From contig NZ_JASTLC010000001.1 of assembly GCF_030499575.1 (NCBI RefSeq), positions 4,302,001 through 4,366,000 of the forward strand: DNA of 64,000 nucleotides, written 5' to 3'. This stretch comes from Streptomyces sp. DG2A-72. Lineage in GTDB: Bacteria > Actinomycetota > Actinomycetes > Streptomycetales > Streptomycetaceae. Position numbers and translations under genes: made by a program. This document shows, in pieces, positions 5,447 through 42,185 of this stretch; positions within the stretch are counted from its first letter, which is position 1, and each line of letters starts with the position of its first letter. The notes under the pieces are model-generated. The model was not told the DNA's origin, searched no databases, and saw only the letters and a list, made by a program, of their open reading frames with translations.

Positions 5447-5773
5447 TCAAGGGGAGTCGGAACGTGCGTCAAGAAACCAAGGCTGTGTAACAGTGGCCGG
5501 GCCGTCGGATCACAGCGTCCGATCGGAAACGATGGCCCTATGTTCTCGACCCAGCGACGAAGACCACAGGGACGGAGACGTGTTCTCCGGCGTCCTCAAG
5601 GTAGTGGCCCCGTTCCCGGTGGAGATCGACCTCGGGCAGGTCTGACCAGGCGCCGCTCGGCAGCCAACAGCGCGTGAGCGATGCGTGAGCGGACGGTCCG
5701 ACACAGGGCGGCATGAGCCGGATCAACCGCGCGGCAGCGCCGGGCACCACGGGCAGAGGTGGGGGGCTGTGCG
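5447..5773. other. Intergenic stretch without a convincing gene
   Basis: This 327-base gap holds the upstream region of the minus-strand protease. No frame in it has a start, ribosome site and recognisable domain. Base composition stays high in GC, and the following kilobase is decayed, so part of it may be old coding sequence. Confidence 0.5.
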
Positions 5774-29690: not shown

Positions 29691-30548
29691 GTGGCGTCCA
29701 ATGTCAATCCCACCGTCAGGCGGCGCCGGCTGGGCCAGGAGCTGCGCAGGCTCCGCGAGCTCAAGGGCATGACGGCCGAGGAAGTGGCGGAACGACTGCT
29801 GGTGTCGCAGTCGAAGATCAGTCGGCTGGAGAACGGCCGGCGCAGCATCAGCCAGCGTGACGTCCGCGATCTGTGCGGGGTCTACGAGGTGGAGGACCAC
29901 CGGATCGTCGACTCGCTGATGCAAATGGCCAAGGACTCGCGCCAGCAGGGCTGGTGGCATTCGTTCGGCGACATCCCGTACAGCGTCTACATCGGCCTGG
30001 AGACGGACGCGGCGAGCCTTCGGGTGTACGACCCGCAGGTCGTCCCCGGTCTGCTGCAGACCCGGACGTACGCGGAGGCGCTCATCGCGGGCGCGCTGCC
30101 GGAGACCGCTTCCGCCGAGGTCGAGAAGCGTGTCCAGGTGCGGCTGCGCCGGCAGGAACGAATCACCGCCCCGGACAACCCGCTGCGCCTGTGGTCCGTC
30201 CTGGACGAGGCGGCATTGCGCCGGGTGGTCGGCAACCGCACCCTGATGCGCGAGCAGTTGGAGTACCTGGTCGAGCAGTCACAGCTCCCGCACGTCACCG
30301 TGCAGGTCATCCCCTTCGACATGGGCGCCCACCCCGGCCTGAACGGGCAGTACGCGATCCTGGAGTTCCCGGACGCGGCTGATTCCAGCGTGGTCTACAT
30401 CGAGGGCGTCACCAGCGATCTGTACCTGGAGAAGGCGAACGACGTCCAGAAGTACGCGGTGATGTACGAGCATTTGCGGGCGCAGGCGCTGAACGTGGAT
30501 CAGTCCCGGCAGTTCATCGCGGACATCGCTAAGGACTACGCGCGCTGA
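29691..30548 (+). CDS. XRE-family regulator with DUF5753 domain
   Basis: A 285-residue Streptomyces regulator. The helix-turn-helix is at about residues 10-60 (RLGQELRRLRELKGMTAEEVAERLLVSQSKISRLENGRR). The remaining 200 residues form the DUF5753 domain, with PQVVPGLLQTRTYAEALI and VIPFDMGAHPGLNGQYAILEFP. GTG 29691 is set by the GGAGGTG site 10 bases upstream. In this family a DUF397 gene normally follows, and here one does at 30855, 306 bases later. Such pairs govern development or antibiotic production in several Streptomyces. Confidence 0.9.
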   Translation: MASNVNPTVRRRRLGQELRRLRELKGMTAEEVAERLLVSQSKISRLENGRRSISQRDVRDLCGVYEVEDHRIVDSLMQMAKDSRQQGWWHSFGDIPYSVYIGLETDAASLRVYDPQVVPGLLQTRTYAEALIAGALPETASAEVEKRVQVRLRRQERITAPDNPLRLWSVLDEAALRRVVGNRTLMREQLEYLVEQSQLPHVTVQVIPFDMGAHPGLNGQYAILEFPDAADSSVVYIEGVTSDLYLEKANDVQKYAVMYEHLRAQALNVDQSRQFIADIAKDYAR

Positions 30549-30854
30549 GCGCTCCGCTGGAAACGCGGTCAAAACGCGCGGGCCGGTGGGGGCTGGTCGC
30601 GCAGTTCCCCGCGCCCCTTACGCGGCGCTGCCGAACCGCAGCCGATTCCCCCAGGGCCGCTCAGACTCGCCCCTGGGCAGAAAGAGGCGCACAGTACACC
30701 TTCGCCCGGCCGGGATGGAAGCTCCATTGGAATATGCCATCCGGTCGAGTGAATGGTCGCTTCATCAGCCGATGTTGGCGAGTAGCGTCGATCACGCCAT
30801 CGGGCACACCGTTGGCGCAATCTCAGCAACATCAACTGGCAATGCGGAGCAAAC
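30549..30854. other. Gap between XRE and DUF397 genes
   Basis: It holds the dispersed repeat copy at 30590-30642 and, after 30690, less GC-rich sequence that should carry the DUF397 gene's own promoter. GGAG lies 7 bases before the ATG at 30855. No other gene is visible. Confidence 0.5.
30590..30642 (-). repeat. Dispersed Streptomyces intergenic repeat, copy 2 (reverse)
   Basis: In reverse orientation this reads CGGTTCGGCAGCG, then GGGGCGCGGGGAACTGCGCG and ACCAGCC, matching copy 1 at 21376-21449. It lies 41 bases after the XRE stop. Confidence 0.75.
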
Positions 30855-31064
30855 ATGGCAATTCGTCAGGGCGCCACGGACACGTGGACCAAGTCCTCGT
30901 ACTCCACGGGAAACGGCGCGTGCGTAGAGATCAAGTCACCGGTTCTCGCGGCCATGGCCGTCCGGGACTCCAAGGTCCCCGAGGGTCCCACGCTGGCCTT
31001 CCCGGCCGACGCGTGGAACGCCTTCGTGGCTCAGGCCGGCCGGGGAGCATTCGACCTCGGCTGA
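30855..31064 (+). CDS. DUF397 protein
   Basis: A 69-residue protein of the DUF397 family, partners of XRE/DUF5753 regulators in Streptomyces. The signatures are TWTKSSYSTGNGACVEI, VAVRDSK-type AVRDSKVP, and a C-terminal LAFPADAWNAFV. It follows the XRE gene at 29691 on the same strand. A role as a small antagonist or ligand of the XRE protein has been proposed for related pairs; nothing in the sequence proves this. Confidence 0.88.
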   Translation: MAIRQGATDTWTKSSYSTGNGACVEIKSPVLAAMAVRDSKVPEGPTLAFPADAWNAFVAQAGRGAFDLG

Positions 31065-34616: not shown

Positions 34617-35758
34617 TCAGGCGCGCGGGTACCGGGCGATCCAGCCCGGGGCCGAGCCGGCAGGCCCATGAAGAGCAGGCCCCTGCGTCATCTCCATGGC
34701 GAAGTCGTCGGCGAGTTCCAGGATCGTGGGACGGCCCTCCAGCTCGGCCAGCCAGGCCGGGGGAGGGCCGTTTCGCCGTGCAGGGCGCCCAGCAGCCCGC
34801 CGGTCAGCGCACCGGCCGCACCCGAGGGGCCGGCCTGGTTCACGGCGAGGCAGAGCCCGTGCCGTACGTCCTCCCCCACCAGCGCGCAGTACACGGACGC
34901 GGCCAGCAGCCCGTCCGCCGTCCCGTCCCCCGCCAGCTCCTCCACCCGCGAGGGCGAGGGCATGCCCTGCCGTACGGCGCCCAGGGCGTGCTGGAGCGAG
35001 TCGGAGACGGGCTCGTGCCCGGGCCGGGCGGCGAGCAGCGCGAGGGCCCGCTGCACGGCGCCGTCGAGGGTCTCGCCGCGGGCCAGGGAGTGCACGATCA
35101 CGGCGTACGCGCCCGCGGACAGATAGGCGGCCGGATGACCGTGCGTCTGCGCCGCGCACTCCACGGCGAGCTGCACGACCAGCTGCGGCTCCCACCCCAC
35201 GAGCAGCCCGAACGGCGCGGAACGGGCGGCGGCCTCGGGCCCGGTCTCGCCGGGATTCTTGGGAGAGTCGAGCGTCCCCATGGCCTCATCCCCGAACCCG
35301 AGGAGCAGCGAGCGCGCCGGATCACGCCGGGCGTACAGCCACTCCTCCCGCGCCAGCCACCCATCATCCTTCCGCCGCTCGTCGGGCCCCCAGTCCCGCT
35401 GGGTCGCCGCCCATCGCAGATACGCCCGGTGCAGATCGGTCGGCGGATGCCAGGCGCCGGTGTCGCGGCGCACCTGGGCGCGTATCAGCCCGTCGACGGA
35501 GAAGAGGCTGAGCTGGGTGAGATGCGTGACGGCGCCCCGCCGCCCGAACCCGACGGCAAGATCGACGATCCCCTCGGCGCCGTACGCCTCCCGGATCTCC
35601 TCACTCCCGAGCCCGTCGACGGGCGCACCCAGCGCATCCCCCAGCGCCGCCCCGAGCAGCGTCCCACGCACCCGGCTACGGAAGTCCTGCTGCTCGGCAC
35701 GTCCCCAGACGGCCCCGGCTGTCGCACCCACCAAGACCTCCGTTGGTATCGCCCGCAC
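34617..35758 (-). pseudogene. ADP-ribosylglycohydrolase family protein with 3' frameshift
   Basis: Minus-strand codons 1-330 encode an ADP-ribosyl-glycohydrolase (DraG-like) protein, with GTLLGAALGDALGAPV (metal-site region) and ALTGGLLGALHGETALP. In a run of five G (34759-34763, plus strand) the frame slips. The uninterrupted frame ends with a nonsense tail at 34688. The alternative frame continues with the family ending PAWLAELEGRPTILELADDFA and stops at 34617. One more base in the homopolymer restores the gene. It may be a true mutation or a sequencing error. Confidence 0.85.
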
Positions 35759-35852: not shown

Positions 35853-36215
35853 TCATGGGCGGGGGTCGCGCAGCCCCGCCTCCGCCTCGGCGGCCTCTCG
35901 GATGGCCCGGATCTCGTCGATGGCCTGCGCCGGATCCTGCTTCCCTTCCTCCACGATCCGCTCCAGCTCACGCAGCCGGGCGGCTCGCTCCGGATACCGT
36001 TCGATAGCCACGAACACGGCCCAGGAGTGCACGAAGGCTCGTAGCGGGGCGAGGGTCTGCGTCTGCTGCGCGTTCGTGGTGGCCTCGAAGAGGTGTTGCG
36101 TCAGGGCAGGGATCTGGCTCGGCGCGATGCGCGCGACCGCAGCCCGCAACCTGTCCGGGGTCAGCTCGGGCATGGGGATCAGCGGTCCGTACGGGCCGTC
36201 GGTCAGGCTGCTCAT
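35853..36215 (-). CDS. Small helical protein in DUF6415 operon, unrecognised
   Basis: A 120-residue protein, mostly helical and charged: MSSLTDGPYGPLIPMPELTPDRLR, then LRAFVHSWAVFVAIERYPERA and RELERIVEEGKQDPAQAIDEIRAIREAAEAEA. The Ala/Glu-rich end may form a coiled coil. ATG 36215 overlaps the stop of the methyltransferase by 4 bases, so it is the last gene of that operon. I do not recognise the family. Confidence 0.65.
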   Translation of the reverse strand: MSSLTDGPYGPLIPMPELTPDRLRAAVARIAPSQIPALTQHLFEATTNAQQTQTLAPLRAFVHSWAVFVAIERYPERAARLRELERIVEEGKQDPAQAIDEIRAIREAAEAEAGLRDPRP

Positions 36216-36868
36216 GCCTCGGCACGCACCAAAAGCGTGCCAACGTGGCCCGGTGTGGGAGCGTCGATGACCTGAGCCACGACATCGCGGAAGCCCGCAC
36301 CCGACAGCAGGCTCTTCCACCGCCGCGGCGTGTAGCTGTACCGGTACGTGTACATCGGCTTGCCGGCGAAGCCGCCCTTGTACATGCCCTGCGGGCCGTA
36401 CGCGCCGGGAATGGCAGGCGGCTGCGAGAAGGCGAACACGCCCCGCGGCCTGAGCCGTTGGTGGACGAGGGGCAGCAGGTGGAGCGGGTCGGCGAACCAG
36501 GCGGCGCCGAAGATCGAATAGATCGCGTCGTAGGTCTGGTCGGTGCGGCGCAGATATTCGATCGCCTCGCCTTGGTGGAAGACGGCACCGGTCGAGGCCC
36601 ACTTCTCGCTGGTCTTCTTCACCATGAGTGGCGAGAGGTCGACACCATGGGCCGTGATGCCACGCTCGGCGAGGTAGGCGACCGCGCGGCCGGTTCCGCA
36701 GCCGATCTCCAGCACCTTGGCGGGGGCTTCGCCGAGCAGCTCGGCACCGGGGCCGTGTCCGGCGTACTGCGTCCAGCAGAACGTGGGCTCGGCATCCTCC
36801 TTGAAGGCGGACTTGGCGTAGGCGTTCCAGACGTCGGTCTCGATGACGAGGTCATGACGTACGGACAA
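36212..36868 (-). CDS. Class I SAM-dependent methyltransferase
   Basis: A 218-residue methyltransferase. Motif I is KVLEIGCGTGRAVAYLAERG (about 50-70), followed by VDLSPLMVKKTSEKW and AIYSIFGAAWFADP. The C terminus has RWKSLLSGAGF, typical of small-molecule methylases. Start at ATG 36868. The stop overlaps the next gene. It is in one operon with DUF6415, a 161-residue conserved protein and a small helical protein. The substrate is unknown and could be a peptide or small metabolite made by this operon. Confidence 0.85.
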   Translation of the reverse strand: MSVRHDLVIETDVWNAYAKSAFKEDAEPTFCWTQYAGHGPGAELLGEAPAKVLEIGCGTGRAVAYLAERGITAHGVDLSPLMVKKTSEKWASTGAVFHQGEAIEYLRRTDQTYDAIYSIFGAAWFADPLHLLPLVHQRLRPRGVFAFSQPPAIPGAYGPQGMYKGGFAGKPMYTYRYSYTPRRWKSLLSGAGFRDVVAQVIDAPTPGHVGTLLVRAEA

Positions 36869-36944
36869 AACGGTGTTCCTCTGCGTAAGCGACCCAGCCC
36901 CGTCCCTCGGGGCGGCGAAAGGACGGGGCGACTGTAGCGGTCGG

Positions 36945-37430
36945 TCAGTGGCTGTCGGGGACCTTCTCGTCGCACGGGCCGCAGTCCGAGGCGTCGACCT
37001 CCCACAGCTCCATGTCGATTTCGAAGCCGTTGTTCCGGATGATCTCGGCGGTCCGCATGACGATGCCGTCGCGACGGCGCCTCACCAGTGGGGCGTGGTG
37101 CTTGTACCGGCCACCGTTGTACATCTCGCACAGGGCGAAGTAGACGGGCGTGTCGAGGATGACCTGATGCACGCCGATGTCGACGGTGCAGCCGGGGCCC
37201 ATGTCGACGCCAGGATTCTCCATCGCGGTAATCAGGTACGCGATGCCCTGATCGAGGATCCGCTCGGCAAGGCTGCGGACGGCGACGCTGTCGCGCAGCA
37301 GCAGTCGCACTTCACGCTCCCACAGGTCCATGTCCTCGTCGGGGACCAGGAGCGGCTCACATTCCTGAACCGCGTTGAGGATGGCTCGTGTGTCGCGGGT
37401 CTTGGACCGGGTCTCTACTGCTGTGGCCAT
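36945..37430 (-). CDS. Conserved Streptomyces protein resembling glycine-rich-domain-type (GRDP) sequences
   Basis: A 161-residue protein. It contains ILDQGIAYLITAM, then GCTVDIGVHQVILDTPVYFALCEMYNGGRYKHHAP and a C-terminal DASDCGPCDEKVPDSH. The H-x-x-I-L-D-T-x-x-Y-x-x-x-C arrangement resembles GRDP/DUF1399 repeats. That assignment is tentative. The final CGPC could bind metal or act in redox chemistry. It lies 14 bases after the DUF6415 gene and before the methyltransferase, in the same operon. Function unknown. Confidence 0.6.
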   Translation of the reverse strand: MATAVETRSKTRDTRAILNAVQECEPLLVPDEDMDLWEREVRLLLRDSVAVRSLAERILDQGIAYLITAMENPGVDMGPGCTVDIGVHQVILDTPVYFALCEMYNGGRYKHHAPLVRRRRDGIVMRTAEIIRNNGFEIDMELWEVDASDCGPCDEKVPDSH

Positions 37431-37444
37431 CTTGACCTGCCCTT

Positions 37445-37756
37445 CTATGAGTTGAACGTCTCGTAGTGGTCGAGCAGAGCATTCAGAGACCGCCCGAGTC
37501 GTCGGGCGTACGCGATACCACCGCTCAGACCAGGGCGGGCCTCGATGCCGAGCTTCCTCCGCGCCTCACCGATGCACGCGAGTGCGCAGTGCCGCGGGAT
37601 GTCGTCCCGGTCGCGCCGTACAGCCGCTGCCTCGACTTCAGGGATGGCCAGTTGGAGGTGAACGCGAAGCGTACTGATGTAAGTGCGCATCGTCCGGAGG
37701 TCGAGTACAGGTGGATCCTTCACGTCGGTGCCGTGCGAGTCGCTGGTTTTGACCAT
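37445..37756 (-). CDS. DUF6415 family protein
   Basis: A 103-residue DUF6415 protein: LRVHLQLAIPEVEAAA, then CALACIGEARRKLGI and RRLGRSLNALLDHYETF. It is the first gene of a four-gene minus-strand operon (DUF6415, GRDP-like, methyltransferase, helical protein). The upstream region is shared with a divergent DUF6879-type gene and contains three ATGTTCTCG repeats. Compare the member at 12425-12811. Confidence 0.75.
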   Translation of the reverse strand: MVKTSDSHGTDVKDPPVLDLRTMRTYISTLRVHLQLAIPEVEAAAVRRDRDDIPRHCALACIGEARRKLGIEARPGLSGGIAYARRLGRSLNALLDHYETFNS

Positions 37757-37796
37757 GAACAGGACGTTAGAAAGCCGAGGTTGACGTCGGCCACGC

Positions 37797-37837
37797 GATG
37801 TTCTCGAATGTTCTCGCAGTCTGGCTGAATGTTCTCG
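37797..37837. promoter_or_regulatory. Three direct repeats of ATGTTCTCG in a divergent promoter
   Basis: ATGTTCTCG occurs at 37798-37806, 37808-37816 and 37829-37837 (spacing 10 and 21 bases, i.e. about one and two helical turns). The last two extend to GAATGTTCTCG. The phase suggests cooperative binding by one regulator, plausibly the XRE protein at 38696. Confidence 0.6.
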
Positions 37838-37930
37838 GTTCGTCTCTCGCAAGGGAAGGCACGCTGTAGCGAAGGGACTTGAGGCTTGGTGATGCTGTGG
37901 GTGATGAGTCCGACACCGAGGGAGACGACC

Positions 37931-38683
37931 ATGCCGCGACGGCTGCGCTTCAACGGCACCGACAGCAAGAACGGCGGATGCCCTGCCGTTCACGAAGACC
38001 TCGACACCGGCGAGATCGTCGTCCAGGGGGCACCGCTCTCCGAACCGGAGGACATCGCCCAGCTGCAGCACTTCGGCGTGGGCGACACTGCGGTGGTCGT
38101 ACCACGCGAACTACTCGTCCATCACGGCCCCAAGGAGGTCACCCGAGTGCCCGAACTGATCGGCTTGGAGGAGTTCGGCCGGCTCTTCGAGAACTTCGAG
38201 CACACTGCCTGGCACCTTGAGACACGGGGCGGTTACGCATCGGACCGGGAGGACGCCTCGTACGCGGCGTTCGTCGAGACCGGCACGGCCACGTGGGACC
38301 TCGACAGCGACTGGTGCGCGAACATCCGCCGACAGACGTCACAGGGCAAATACGTGGGGCGTGTGCGCGTCGTCGACAACCCGCCGACCGAAGGACAGCT
38401 CTTCCTGCTGGACTACGCGAAGTGCAACGCCGCCACAGGCGAGGACGTGCGCAACCTGTGGCGCGCGGACGCAGAGCGCTTGCGCTTGCCCTCGGAGGAC
38501 TTCTGGATCTTCGACAGCAGGTTGGTCGCTCTGCTCCGCTTCGACGATGTCGACACCTTGCTCGACGTCGAGGTGGTCACAGAGCCCGCACGGGTCCTGC
38601 GCTACTGCCAGGTACGCGACACCACGATGCATCACGCGGTCCCCTACGACCGGTTCGCAGCACAGTTGGCCGTAAACGACTAG
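37931..38683 (+). CDS. Fusion of small XRE-associated protein with DUF6879 domain
   Basis: A 250-residue protein. Residues 1-65 (RLRFNGTDSKNGGCPAVHED, then TAVVVPRELLVHHGP) match a small Streptomyces protein usually encoded alone. Residues 75-250 are a DUF6879 domain (FGRLFENFEHTAWHLETRGGY, GKYVGRVRVVDNPPTEGQLFLLDY and FDSRLVALLRFD). The two are usually separate neighbouring genes; here they form one frame with no stop between them. ATG 37931 follows GAGGGAG. It ends 12 bases before the XRE/DUF5753 gene, its usual partner. Confidence 0.78.
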   Translation: MPRRLRFNGTDSKNGGCPAVHEDLDTGEIVVQGAPLSEPEDIAQLQHFGVGDTAVVVPRELLVHHGPKEVTRVPELIGLEEFGRLFENFEHTAWHLETRGGYASDREDASYAAFVETGTATWDLDSDWCANIRRQTSQGKYVGRVRVVDNPPTEGQLFLLDYAKCNAATGEDVRNLWRADAERLRLPSEDFWIFDSRLVALLRFDDVDTLLDVEVVTEPARVLRYCQVRDTTMHHAVPYDRFAAQLAVND

Positions 38684-38695
38684 CGAGAGGTACTG

Positions 38696-39547
38696 GTGAG
38701 CACGGACTTTCAGCAGGCTCGGGAGGCTCTCGGAGCACGCCTTCGGGAACTACGGCTCTCGGCTCCTGAAGGCCGACTCACCGGTCCGCAACTCGCCCTC
38801 CGGCTCGACTGGCCGCACTCCAAGATCTACAAGCTGGAGAACGGCCGTCAGACCGCAACCACCGAAGATCTGCGTGCCTGGGCCGAAGGCGTCGACCAGC
38901 CGCAGGCCTTCGACGAACTGGACGCCCGCCTCAAGGGCTTCGAGTCCCACATACGCTCATGGCGCCGCCAACTGGCGGCAGGCCACCGGCCGGTACAGGA
39001 CAGCTGGAATGCGGAGATCGCCCGGTCCAGCCTCATCCACGCCTGGGAAGAAGCCGTCGTCCCCGGCATGTTGCAAACGGCCGACTACGCGCGGCACATC
39101 TTCCTGCGGTACGCCGACCTCCAGAACTCCGTTCGCGACACCGACGCGGCGGTCCGCGCACGAATGAAGCGGCAGGAGTGGCTGTACCAAGGGGGCAAGA
39201 AGTTCCACGCCCTTGTATGGGAGGCCGCGTTGCACGCCCGGATCTGTCCACCGTCGACACTCGCCGGCCAGCTCGACCGACTCGCGGGTGTCATCGGTAT
39301 GGACACCGTGGAACTCGGGATCATCCCTCTCGGCGCACCGCTCAAGATCCCGGCGGCCAACGGCTTCTGGGTCCTCGACGACAGACTCGTGATCGCCGAG
39401 GACTGGCACGCGGAACTGTGGCTCGACGACGCGGACAGCATCACGACGTACCTCCGGGTCTGGGACACGCTGCGCGAGTCCGCGGTGTACGGGGCCGATG
39501 CCCACAACGTGATCAACCACGCCCGGCAGGCGCTGAACCCGCGCTGA
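38696..39547 (+). CDS. XRE-family regulator with DUF5753 domain
   Basis: A 283-residue regulator. HTH at about residues 10-55 (LGARLRELRLSAPEGRLTGPQLALRLDWPHSKIYKLENGR). DUF5753 follows, with EEAVVPGMLQTADYARHIFLRYADL and ELGIIPLGAPLKIPAANGFWVLDDRLVIAEDW. GTG 38696 is preceded by GAGAGG. It is 12 bases after the DUF6879 fusion gene and is co-transcribed with it. The divergent DUF6415 operon is a likely target. Confidence 0.9.
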   Translation: MSTDFQQAREALGARLRELRLSAPEGRLTGPQLALRLDWPHSKIYKLENGRQTATTEDLRAWAEGVDQPQAFDELDARLKGFESHIRSWRRQLAAGHRPVQDSWNAEIARSSLIHAWEEAVVPGMLQTADYARHIFLRYADLQNSVRDTDAAVRARMKRQEWLYQGGKKFHALVWEAALHARICPPSTLAGQLDRLAGVIGMDTVELGIIPLGAPLKIPAANGFWVLDDRLVIAEDWHAELWLDDADSITTYLRVWDTLRESAVYGADAHNVINHARQALNPR

Positions 39548-41199: not shown

Positions 41200-42009
41200 G
41201 TGGAGGACGAGGAAGCCGCGGCCGTACTCAAGACCGTAGGCCGCCAGATCAAGATGTGGCGAGAGGCCGCCGGGATGAGGCAGACGGAACTCGGGACGGC
41301 GATCGGGTACGGCGAGGAGATGGTCTCGTCGGTGGAGCGGGGGCGGAGGGTTCCGAGGCCGGATTTCCTGGACAAGGCCGATGAGGTGCTCGGCGCGGGC
41401 GGCAAGATCTCCGCGATGAAGAAGGACGTGGAGGAGGCTCGGTATCCGAAGAAGGTGCGGGATCTGGCGAAGTTGGAGGATGAGGCGGTTGAACTGGGGG
41501 CATACGCGAACCATTACGTGCACGGGCTGTTGCAGACGCCGGACTACACGCAGGCGCTCTACACCATGCGGCGCCCCTCGTACACGGAAGACGAGGTCGA
41601 CCGGCATGTCAGCGCACGTATTGCGCGCCAGAGCGTCTTCGAGCGTGTGCCACGGCCGACGCTCACCTTCGTCCAGGAAGAGGTGACACTGCTCCGGCCG
41701 ATCGGCGGCAAGATGGTGCTGCGCGAACAACTCGAACGTCTGTTGGAGATCGGTCGGTTGCGGCACGTCGAGATCCAGGTGATGCCCACGGACCGTGACG
41801 ACCACGCAGGTATGGGCGGGCCCATCCGGTTGCTGAAGCTCCGGGACGGCAACACGGTGGCTCACGAGGAGGGACAGACCTACAACCGCCTGATCAGCGA
41901 TCCCAGAGAGGTGCAACTCCTTGAGTTGCGCTATGGGATCATCCGAGCCCAGGCTCTTACTCCTCGAGAGTCATTGGCCCTTATCGAGAAGGCACTTGGA
42001 GAGACATGA
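41200..42009 (+). CDS. XRE-family regulator with DUF5753 domain
   Basis: A 269-residue regulator. HTH at about residues 13-60 (GRQIKMWREAAGMRQTELGTAIGYGEEMVSSVERGRR). DUF5753 follows with YANHYVHGLLQTPDYTQALYTMRRP and VEIQVMPTDRDDHAGMGGPIRLLKLRDG. GTG 41200 lies after GGGAGGGGA. Its stop overlaps the DUF397 gene by 4 bases. It is divergent from an RsbW-like HATPase gene. Confidence 0.9.
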   Translation: MEDEEAAAVLKTVGRQIKMWREAAGMRQTELGTAIGYGEEMVSSVERGRRVPRPDFLDKADEVLGAGGKISAMKKDVEEARYPKKVRDLAKLEDEAVELGAYANHYVHGLLQTPDYTQALYTMRRPSYTEDEVDRHVSARIARQSVFERVPRPTLTFVQEEVTLLRPIGGKMVLREQLERLLEIGRLRHVEIQVMPTDRDDHAGMGGPIRLLKLRDGNTVAHEEGQTYNRLISDPREVQLLELRYGIIRAQALTPRESLALIEKALGET

Positions 42010-42185
42010 ACCTGAACTGGTTCAAGAGCAGCTACAGCAGCAACGAGGGCCCCGACTGCATCGAGGTCGCCATATCCCCCACCGACGCCACCGTCCACGT
42101 ACGCGACTCCAAGGACAAGAACGGCGCGCGGCTCGCGTTCACGGACGCCTCGTGGGCGAAGTTCGTGTCGTTCGCGGGGCGCTGA
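42006..42185 (+). CDS. DUF397 protein
   Basis: A 59-residue DUF397 protein: NLNWFKSSYSSNEGPDCIEVA, then TVHVRDSKDKNGARLAFTDASWAKFV. ATG 42006 overlaps the upstream XRE stop (ATGA), so both are translationally coupled. The 3' end is convergent with the large TPR gene, 3 bases apart. Confidence 0.9.
   Translation: MNLNWFKSSYSSNEGPDCIEVAISPTDATVHVRDSKDKNGARLAFTDASWAKFVSFAGR

Follow-up and report, generated by a model that had tools for sequence, protein, structure and literature searches.

The described systems nearest to the locus reported here are the imiditides and pamtides, ribosomally synthesized and post-translationally modified peptides (RiPPs) that are frequent in Streptomyces. They are reported to be encoded by two adjacent genes, one for a precursor and one for a methyltransferase, which is the sole primary modifying enzyme; a conserved Asp is methylated, leading to an aspartimide, and a cysimiditide subgroup has conserved cysteines (PMC13001092; PMC10787088). 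Our locus lies in a 64,000-nucleotide stretch of Streptomyces sp. DG2A-72 (hereafter, the window; positions 4,302,001 to 4,366,000 of the 10.3-Mb contig NZ_JASTLC010000001.1) and has the same two-gene arrangement, i.e., a gene for a precursor-like protein, referred to here as GRDP-like, and a gene for a class I S-adenosylmethionine (SAM)-dependent methyltransferase. However, the imiditide and pamtide enzyme is a PIMT homologue that has an additional C-terminal domain and the motif WXXXGXP, whereas the methyltransferase of the window showed no PF01135 match at E ≤ 1 among the 14 Pfam families that it matched, and the WXXXGXP motif occurred in 0/39 of its relatives. In addition, the GRDP-like precursor has a folded domain of ~130 amino acids (aa), and relatives of it adjoin kinases. 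Since the methyltransferase is not of the PIMT/PCMT type, identity with the imiditides or pamtides was rejected.

Leaders of the NHLP and Nif11 types are used with many enzymes. Proteusins combine one long leader family with several modifying enzymes. The proteusin S-methyltransferase PtyS acts on precursor cysteines (PMC11285071). In contrast, the GRDP domain had no Pfam match to such leaders, and neither lanthionine synthetase nor radical SAM genes are recurrent neighbors of it. The kinases found next to some GRDP relatives resemble those of lanthipeptide classes IV (LanL) and V (LxmK), but these matches are partial and score far under the curated thresholds, neither a lyase nor a cyclase was noticed, and kinases are absent from the cassette in the window. 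WhiJ/BldB loci also have an XRE-DUF5753 regulator, a divergent gene, and three direct repeats between them (PMC10294661; see also PMC10364602 and PMC6262351); the window differs in having a DUF6879 fusion instead of DUF397 and in divergent genes that include the GRDP-like gene and the methyltransferase. We propose, with a probability of roughly 0.55, that these two genes form a RiPP-like maturation module, in which a folded leader would present a conserved core tail on which the methyltransferase would act. RiPP-like working is the best-supported explanation of the pair, and membership of a particular RiPP class is a separate claim.

A recurring gene pair and a conserved tail

A search of 5.8 billion proteins returned 200 relatives of the GRDP-like protein at E ≤ 1e-3. 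Of the 130 loci that were confirmed, the best 80 were taken from named genomes with flanks of up to 10 kb, and their gene neighborhoods were compared ("81 loci" below includes the window); genes were called by our own heuristic based on third-codon-position GC (GC3), and related genomes among them are not independent. Results showed that the methyltransferase gene was directly downstream of the GRDP gene, on the same strand, in 80/80 loci. DUF6415 occurred upstream in 3/80, by a model of 4-5 sequences that may miss weak members, and DUF6247 occurred downstream in 1/80. Therefore, the recurring unit is the GRDP gene plus the methyltransferase gene. The first-pass annotation of this DNA had grouped four minus-strand genes (DUF6415, GRDP-like, methyltransferase, and a small helical protein, assigned here to DUF6247) as one set and regarded rare co-occurrence of their homologues as evidence against it; the four seldom occur together in the 80 loci, and the block was rejected as a conserved unit. 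What recurs of the cassette that it placed next to its own regulator is the pair, not the whole set. Clustering of 1696 predicted genes showed that, besides the pair, regulators and small proteins lie near the cassette. Among the 45 largest clusters, named by eye, no other cluster had more than seven members within 3.5 kb and no enzyme family besides the methyltransferase recurred; offsets were taken from a single anchor, which makes the near counts slightly low for 11 loci starting elsewhere.

The GRDP-like protein matched no Pfam or NCBIfam family at E ≤ 1, its profile matched no PDB sequence at E ≤ 10, Foldseek with its model returned nothing under E 1 (best E 2.4), and GRDP proteins were unmatched in PHROGs. 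Relatives such as P0123 are named "glycine-rich domain-containing protein" by NCBI and carry the motif [GA]-W-H-x-F-x-L-H-T, the W of which is replaced by V in the window protein; the Pfam label PF27765 is shown on GRDP relatives. An AlphaFold2 model gave a confident helical domain (residues ~14-144) and a low-confidence tail (block means of 46 and 34 for pLDDT), such that the protein is predicted to consist of a helical domain and a disordered C-terminal tail. The tail has the consensus CxPCDxKxPDSH, more fully C-[SG]-P-C-D-x-K-x-P-D-S-H. CGPC had been described as the end of the protein; the motif is present but is located 12 to 9 residues upstream of the C-terminus. Across the 81 loci, mean identity was 0.947 for the last 12 residues, 0.76-0.77 for the domain, and 0.63 for the six-residue linker before the tail, and C150, P152, C153, P158, D159, S160, and H161 were unchanged in 81/81. 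One of the two search patterns behind the 80 loci lies inside the tail (D[AG][SA][DNE]C[SG]PCD; PDSH is in neither) and so favors tail identity in this set. We therefore repeated the measure on 120 listed proteins found without the tail pattern, which gave 0.926 for the tail, 0.80 for the domain, and 0.63 for the linker, with the PDSH ending in 120/120. Since third codon positions of the tail in the 81 loci were less often identical (0.86) than first and second positions (0.96), the constraint acts on the protein.

A VIA-align comparison of the methyltransferase returned class I methyltransferases of many substrates, including the RiPP enzyme CgnL (rank 50) and N-terminal peptide methyltransferases, so no single substrate is indicated. 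Between the GRDP and methyltransferase genes, a stem of at least 7 bp was found in 77/81 loci, compared with 61/96 control gaps (60-100 bp) drawn from these loci. The folding z-score was under -2 in 45/81 of these gaps versus 14/96 controls, with means of -2.4 and -0.5, respectively, and an inverted repeat was seen by eye in the corresponding gap of phage Alvy. The hairpin may be an attenuator that keeps the methyltransferase below the level of the precursor.

Tail classes and their adjacent genes

Relatives of the GRDP-like protein were gathered from 148, 35, 121, and 394 genomes. Rows scoring <90 were excluded (11/233), and the remaining 222 were reduced to 213 by removal of duplicates. The relatives' domain keeps a G-F-x-V-D-x-x-L-W-like end, which is followed by varied, Cys-containing tails that we sorted with regular expressions written after the tails had been seen. 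In six tail classes, the adjacent gene fits the tail in 181/184 deduplicated cases; class 7 (VAAxCxH; 21 cases) and eight "other" tails stand outside this count. Tails of the window's type (CxPC..PDSH) were followed by a methyltransferase in 92/92 cases and other CxPC..H tails in 15/16, with L186 having its methyltransferase 92 bp away on the opposite strand. The 29 QCHxxC tails were paired with either a methyltransferase (17) or an APH-fold kinase (PF01636; 12). The partner was an APH protein for CSASG tails (13/13), a protein of ~122 aa for CCGDG tails (15/15), and a LanL-like kinase for QCDSDCGR tails (17/19); of the two misses in the latter class, L207 ends with its contig after 198 bp and L211 is unexplained. 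The eight tails outside all classes had two APH partners, one methyltransferase, one tiny open reading frame (ORF), and four without a partner. DUF6415 is sporadic beside GRDP genes (5/100 in class 1a, 3/14 in class 5, 1/21 in class 7, and 0 in the other classes), again by a model of 4-5 sequences. Downstream of many class 7 GRDP genes (L225, L228, L235, L238, L240, and others) there are tiny ORFs of ~41-86 aa with an RGFxIP-like end.

Mutual information between tail class and enzyme was 1.23 bits (n = 181), a value reached in 0/2000 shuffles, which ignore relatedness. On a tree built from the domain only, in which 53/140 inner branches are unresolved, the partner needs six changes for its five states (minimum four). 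L222, for instance, has a methyltransferase and no APH gene in its locus, yet falls within a starred clade with six APH cases. A later search of the 394 genomes provided 12 loci. The expressions used before assigned eight of them to a class, each with a fitting partner (8/8); L254, L259, and L260 lie outside the classes and have an APH gene, and L252 lacks a partner. In L252 (21-1947), the GRDP gene lies ~0.9 kb downstream of what by eye looks like a separate, neighboring RiPP cluster, made up of a radical-SAM-like gene that has a Cys-rich end and an ORF for a peptide of 40 aa. In L262 (1432-3444), a GRDP gene, a methyltransferase gene, and an APH-fold kinase gene stand in a row on one strand, an order that suggests that two modifications can be combined. 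Distinct tails linked to a methyltransferase contained [DN][SGC][HP] in 85/88 cases (57 of the 88 being PDSH tails), as opposed to 8/26 for APH, 0/15 for the kinase, and 8/13 for CCGDG partners, and C-x-x-[CS] was present in 87/88 methyltransferase-linked tails. A kinase partner had LanL as its best NCBIfam match (52 bits, against a cut-off of 650), and one APH partner had LxmK as its second match (21 bits, against 315). The ~122-aa family (L088 7636-8028, L116 7402-7767, and L117 6383-6754) had no Pfam match at E ≤ 0.01 and is possibly a new modifying enzyme.

Candidates scored per genome were limited to 32 in the search of 121 genomes and to 9 in that of 394, so that copy numbers are lower bounds. 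The genome of Streptomyces sp. DG2A-72 itself has four further GRDP matches (L086-L089). L088 has a CCGDGPCC tail and no methyltransferase, L089 has the tail HQCHAGCHDSPK and a methyltransferase, and L087 is interrupted, with CGPCSPGSNCH and a methyltransferase. L086 (7366-8844; C1 ~2869865-2871343) is a degenerate second copy of the window's cassette, with a shortened DUF6879 gene, a 58-aa GRDP remnant whose tail is of the window's class, and a methyltransferase truncated at the N-terminus.

Proposed maturation of the tail

The computed features, i.e., adjacency, tail conservation, predicted order and disorder, covariation of tail and enzyme, repeats, and hairpin, are consistent with the following scheme. 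The GRDP-like protein would be the precursor, its folded N-terminal domain would act as leader or recognition domain, and the disordered, conserved C-terminal tail would be the core, which the methyltransferase encoded directly downstream would methylate. The favored first site would be the Asp side chain of [DN]-[SGC]-[HP], giving a methyl ester and possibly, beyond it, an aspartimide; we favor Asp because of the frequency of this motif in methyltransferase-linked tails and because of the aspartimide precedent in imiditides and pamtides. Cysteine thiols would come second, on account of the near-universal C-x-x-[CS] and the precedent of PtyS, and the C-terminal carboxylate third, on account of the precedent of LahSB (PMC11285071). 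The tail might then be cleaved from the domain or stay attached to it. In the relatives, this leader domain would be combined with different tails and enzymes, and the divergent WhiJ-type XRE-DUF5753 protein would control expression through phased direct repeats.

Several observations weigh against this scheme. Modification of the tail by the methyltransferase is something we infer from sequence, and the fold of the enzyme is a generic one. No fusion of a GRDP domain with a methyltransferase was present among the best 120 of 663 matches. Among the 45 largest gene clusters, inspected by eye, no protease was noticed and no exporter recurred close by; an ABC-transporter-like cluster was recognized in 16 loci, with just 3/20 of its members within 3.5 kb. 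Of 30 methyltransferase loci kept from 121 Streptomyces genomes, a count that leaves many weaker methyltransferase matches outside, 25 had a Cys-tailed GRDP frame (only partial in L281), GRDP was absent in four (L265, L272, L288, and L291), and it was broken in L273. Class 7 has no recognized modifying enzyme adjacent to it, with a tiny ORF in 11 of the 21 cases and nothing in 10 by the expression used (by eye, L239, L243, and L246 also have a tiny ORF). Four of the seven classes need one or two changes on the domain tree, and since several tail classes are single clades, descent explains part of the covariation between tail and enzyme. Finally, most antimicrobial RiPPs vary in their core, whereas the GRDP tail hardly varies within a class.

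The strongest competitor, although an unlikely one, is that the GRDP-like protein itself has a metal-binding or redox function: conserved His and Cys of the domain together with Cys and His of the tail would bind a metal or form a disulfide, the tail would stay unmodified, and the adjacent enzymes would act on small molecules of the same pathway. H88, C101, H112, and tail residue C150 are indeed invariant in 83 sequences, both CGPC and CSPC are similar to redox motifs, and a tail like CCGDGPCC has the look of a metal-binding sequence. Cysimiditide precursors are described as binding zinc (PMC13001092). However, this explanation by itself leaves unaccounted for the switching of the enzyme with the tail while the domain stays, as well as the conserved P, D, K, P, D, and S of the tail.

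The locus and its genomic context

All six genes listed by the first-pass annotation were found where it had placed them (Table 1). Its tight spacing of the minus-strand genes applies to the 14 bp between the DUF6415 and GRDP-like genes and to the 4-bp overlap of the DUF6247 gene with the methyltransferase gene, but not to the 76-bp gap that contains the hairpin. The DUF6247 assignment had an E value of 2e-6 (28.5 bits, against a cut-off of 26.9), and the start of the DUF6879 gene was taken as the ATG at 37931, judged best. The DUF6879 protein had rightly been called a fusion: in 18/81 loci, a separate gene encodes a small protein to which its N-terminal portion corresponds (E 3e-9). The next gene downstream of DUF6247 on the same strand (34688-35758) encodes an ADP-ribosylglycohydrolase (PF03747, E 1e-55) and is also present in the closest relative, L001.

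Table 1. Features of the cassette and its divergent genes, in window coordinates.
Feature	Position	Strand	Description
DUF6415 protein	37445..37756	-	103 aa; PF19979, E 9e-23; first of the minus-strand set; accessory, outside the conserved core
GRDP-like protein	36945..37430	-	161 aa; folded domain ~14-144 and C-terminal tail; proposed precursor/substrate
Tail coding region DASDCGPCDEKVPDSH	36948..36995	-	last 16 residues before the stop; proposed core/modified region
GRDP-methyltransferase gap with GC-rich hairpin	36869..36944	-	possible attenuator
Class I SAM-dependent methyltransferase	36212..36868	-	218 aa; TTG start; PF13489 and others; proposed tail modifier
DUF6247 protein	35853..36215	-	120 aa; PF19760; accessory
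Three direct repeats ATGTTCTCG	37798..37837	+	spacing of 10 and 21 bp; by analogy, likely the XRE regulator's operator
DUF6879 protein with N-terminal small-protein module	37931..38683	+	250 aa; PF21806, E 4e-50
XRE helix-turn-helix (HTH) + DUF5753 (WhiJ-type) regulator	38696..39547	+	283 aa; PF13560 and PF19054, both above cut-off

The regulator of the window has the N-terminal XRE HTH and C-terminal DUF5753 of a WhiJ-type protein. DUF397-DUF5753 pairs have been reported near graspetide clusters (PMC13097080), a point in favor of the RiPP-like scheme; no DUF397 gene adjoins the XRE gene here, the neighbors of which are the DUF6879 gene and an opposite-strand HTH_36 gene 13 bp past its stop. 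Two further XRE genes near the cassette (41200-42185 and 29691-31064) are each followed by a small gene that by eye looks like DUF397. The three exact copies of ATGTTCTCG reported earlier were confirmed at 37798, 37808, and 37829. The window contains five copies, compared with 0.27 expected, and 0/100 shuffles reached five; single extra copies are at 5540 and 46864. The XRE proteins most like that of the window are those of L066, L079, L064, and L058 (82-87% over the aligned part), and repeats were compared in the last three. In L058, a near copy stands between copies 1 and 3, which are exact and lie 31 bp apart, L079 has three near copies in the same register, and L064 has two words 31 bp apart; other homologues have different repeated words in a layout that is similar by eye. 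In S. venezuelae, WhiJ9 is reported to bind a set of three direct repeats located between divergent genes, to activate the divergent gene iosA, and probably to repress its own expression (PMC10294661). By analogy with WhiJ9, the ATGTTCTCG repeats are likely the operator of the divergent XRE regulator.

Among the 81 loci, DUF6879 with XRE-DUF5753 was found near the cassette in 41, DUF6879 alone in four, XRE-DUF5753 without DUF6879 in five, a c4-type XRE alone in 14, a c16-type alone in three, and none of the modelled regulator types in 14. XRE-type regulators had a density of 0.151 per kb near the cassette, compared with 0.020 per kb in the remainder of the loci; the profiles derive from families first encountered in these loci, which favors the near count. 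That density, the phased direct repeats between divergent genes, and the behavior of WhiJ9 would also fit a regulatory or developmental module, in which the adjacent XRE regulators would have the (perhaps modified) GRDP tail as their ligand or cofactor, much as WhiJ works with BldB paralogues. We regard this as improbable, given that regulator types swap while the GRDP gene and the methyltransferase persist, and given the 14 loci devoid of modelled regulators.

GRDP domain matches, some of them weak or partial, were found in 75/121 Streptomyces genomes (1-7 each) and in 18/35 genomes of another actinobacterial family. By tblastn, the GRDP-like protein matched eight phage records, seven of which also matched the methyltransferase at ~69% identity. 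In the temperate phages Alvy (L293 7042-10229) and TrvxScott (L295 1042-4229) the two genes adjoin, flanked on one side by two small genes, a regulator, and a serine integrase and on the other by ribonucleotide reductase; the GRDP tail of Alvy is of the window's class. Relatives were also found on 39 plasmid records, in the best of which the methyltransferase follows after one small coding sequence. In phage Kromp (L294 3394-4541), genes for DUF6415, a GRDP of class 7, and a protein of 42 aa that ends in PVRGFVIP stand together near an integrase and an immunity repressor, and 17 uncultivated viral contigs (L296-L312) encode GRDP relatives.

The location of the pair beside a serine integrase, the plasmid records, and the patchy distribution in Streptomyces could also indicate a mobile conflict or lysogenic-conversion module that protects or alters the host, e.g., against other phages. 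Such a role, which is compatible with tail maturation, seems to us about as improbable as the regulatory one: mobility by itself is uninformative on function, and GRDP, DUF6415, DUF6879, and the ~122-aa protein were unmatched in PADLOC-DB 2.0.0. The methyltransferase's match there (mad2, E 6.5e-18) spans residues 47-158, the SAM-binding part. A known anti-phage defense system was rejected as a candidate on the same database, in which no specific match was found and those of the methyltransferase, the XRE protein, and DUF6247 were generic or marginal. Finally, the four genes could serve small-molecule biosynthesis under a regulator of their own, in line with the earlier suggestion of a small biosynthetic or modification cassette. 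Three of them are closely spaced, which speaks for it, but the rarity of DUF6415 and DUF6247 beside the pair and the lack of a second recurrent enzyme among the 45 largest clusters make it very unlikely.

The cassette had been singled out as the best candidate for an undescribed system, and the literature search agrees. In the open-licence literature, no paper was found on DUF6879, the only match for DUF6415 concerns spiders, and "glycine-rich domain-containing protein" had no bacterial subject by title among the matches listed, nor any paper in combination with Streptomyces and methyltransferase or with "biosynthetic gene cluster". This suggests that the family is undescribed. More tentatively than the maturation module itself, and short of an even chance, we envisage GRDP-tail proteins as a new, widespread actinobacterial precursor family with one folded leader, interchangeable enzymes, and a nearly fixed Cys core per enzyme class, whose conserved products would be intracellular or signals rather than diversified antibiotics, and which temperate phages and plasmids would disseminate. 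Should the tail be the substrate of the adjacent enzyme, the GRDP domain would be a new type of leader in a large, easily tested RiPP-like family, and the correspondence between tail and enzyme classes would provide ready-made substrate-enzyme pairs. These would include the LanL-like and APH kinases, which have no lyase noticed nearby, and the ~122-aa protein, which may be a new enzyme. WhiJ-type regulators, in turn, would gain a concrete candidate target operon.

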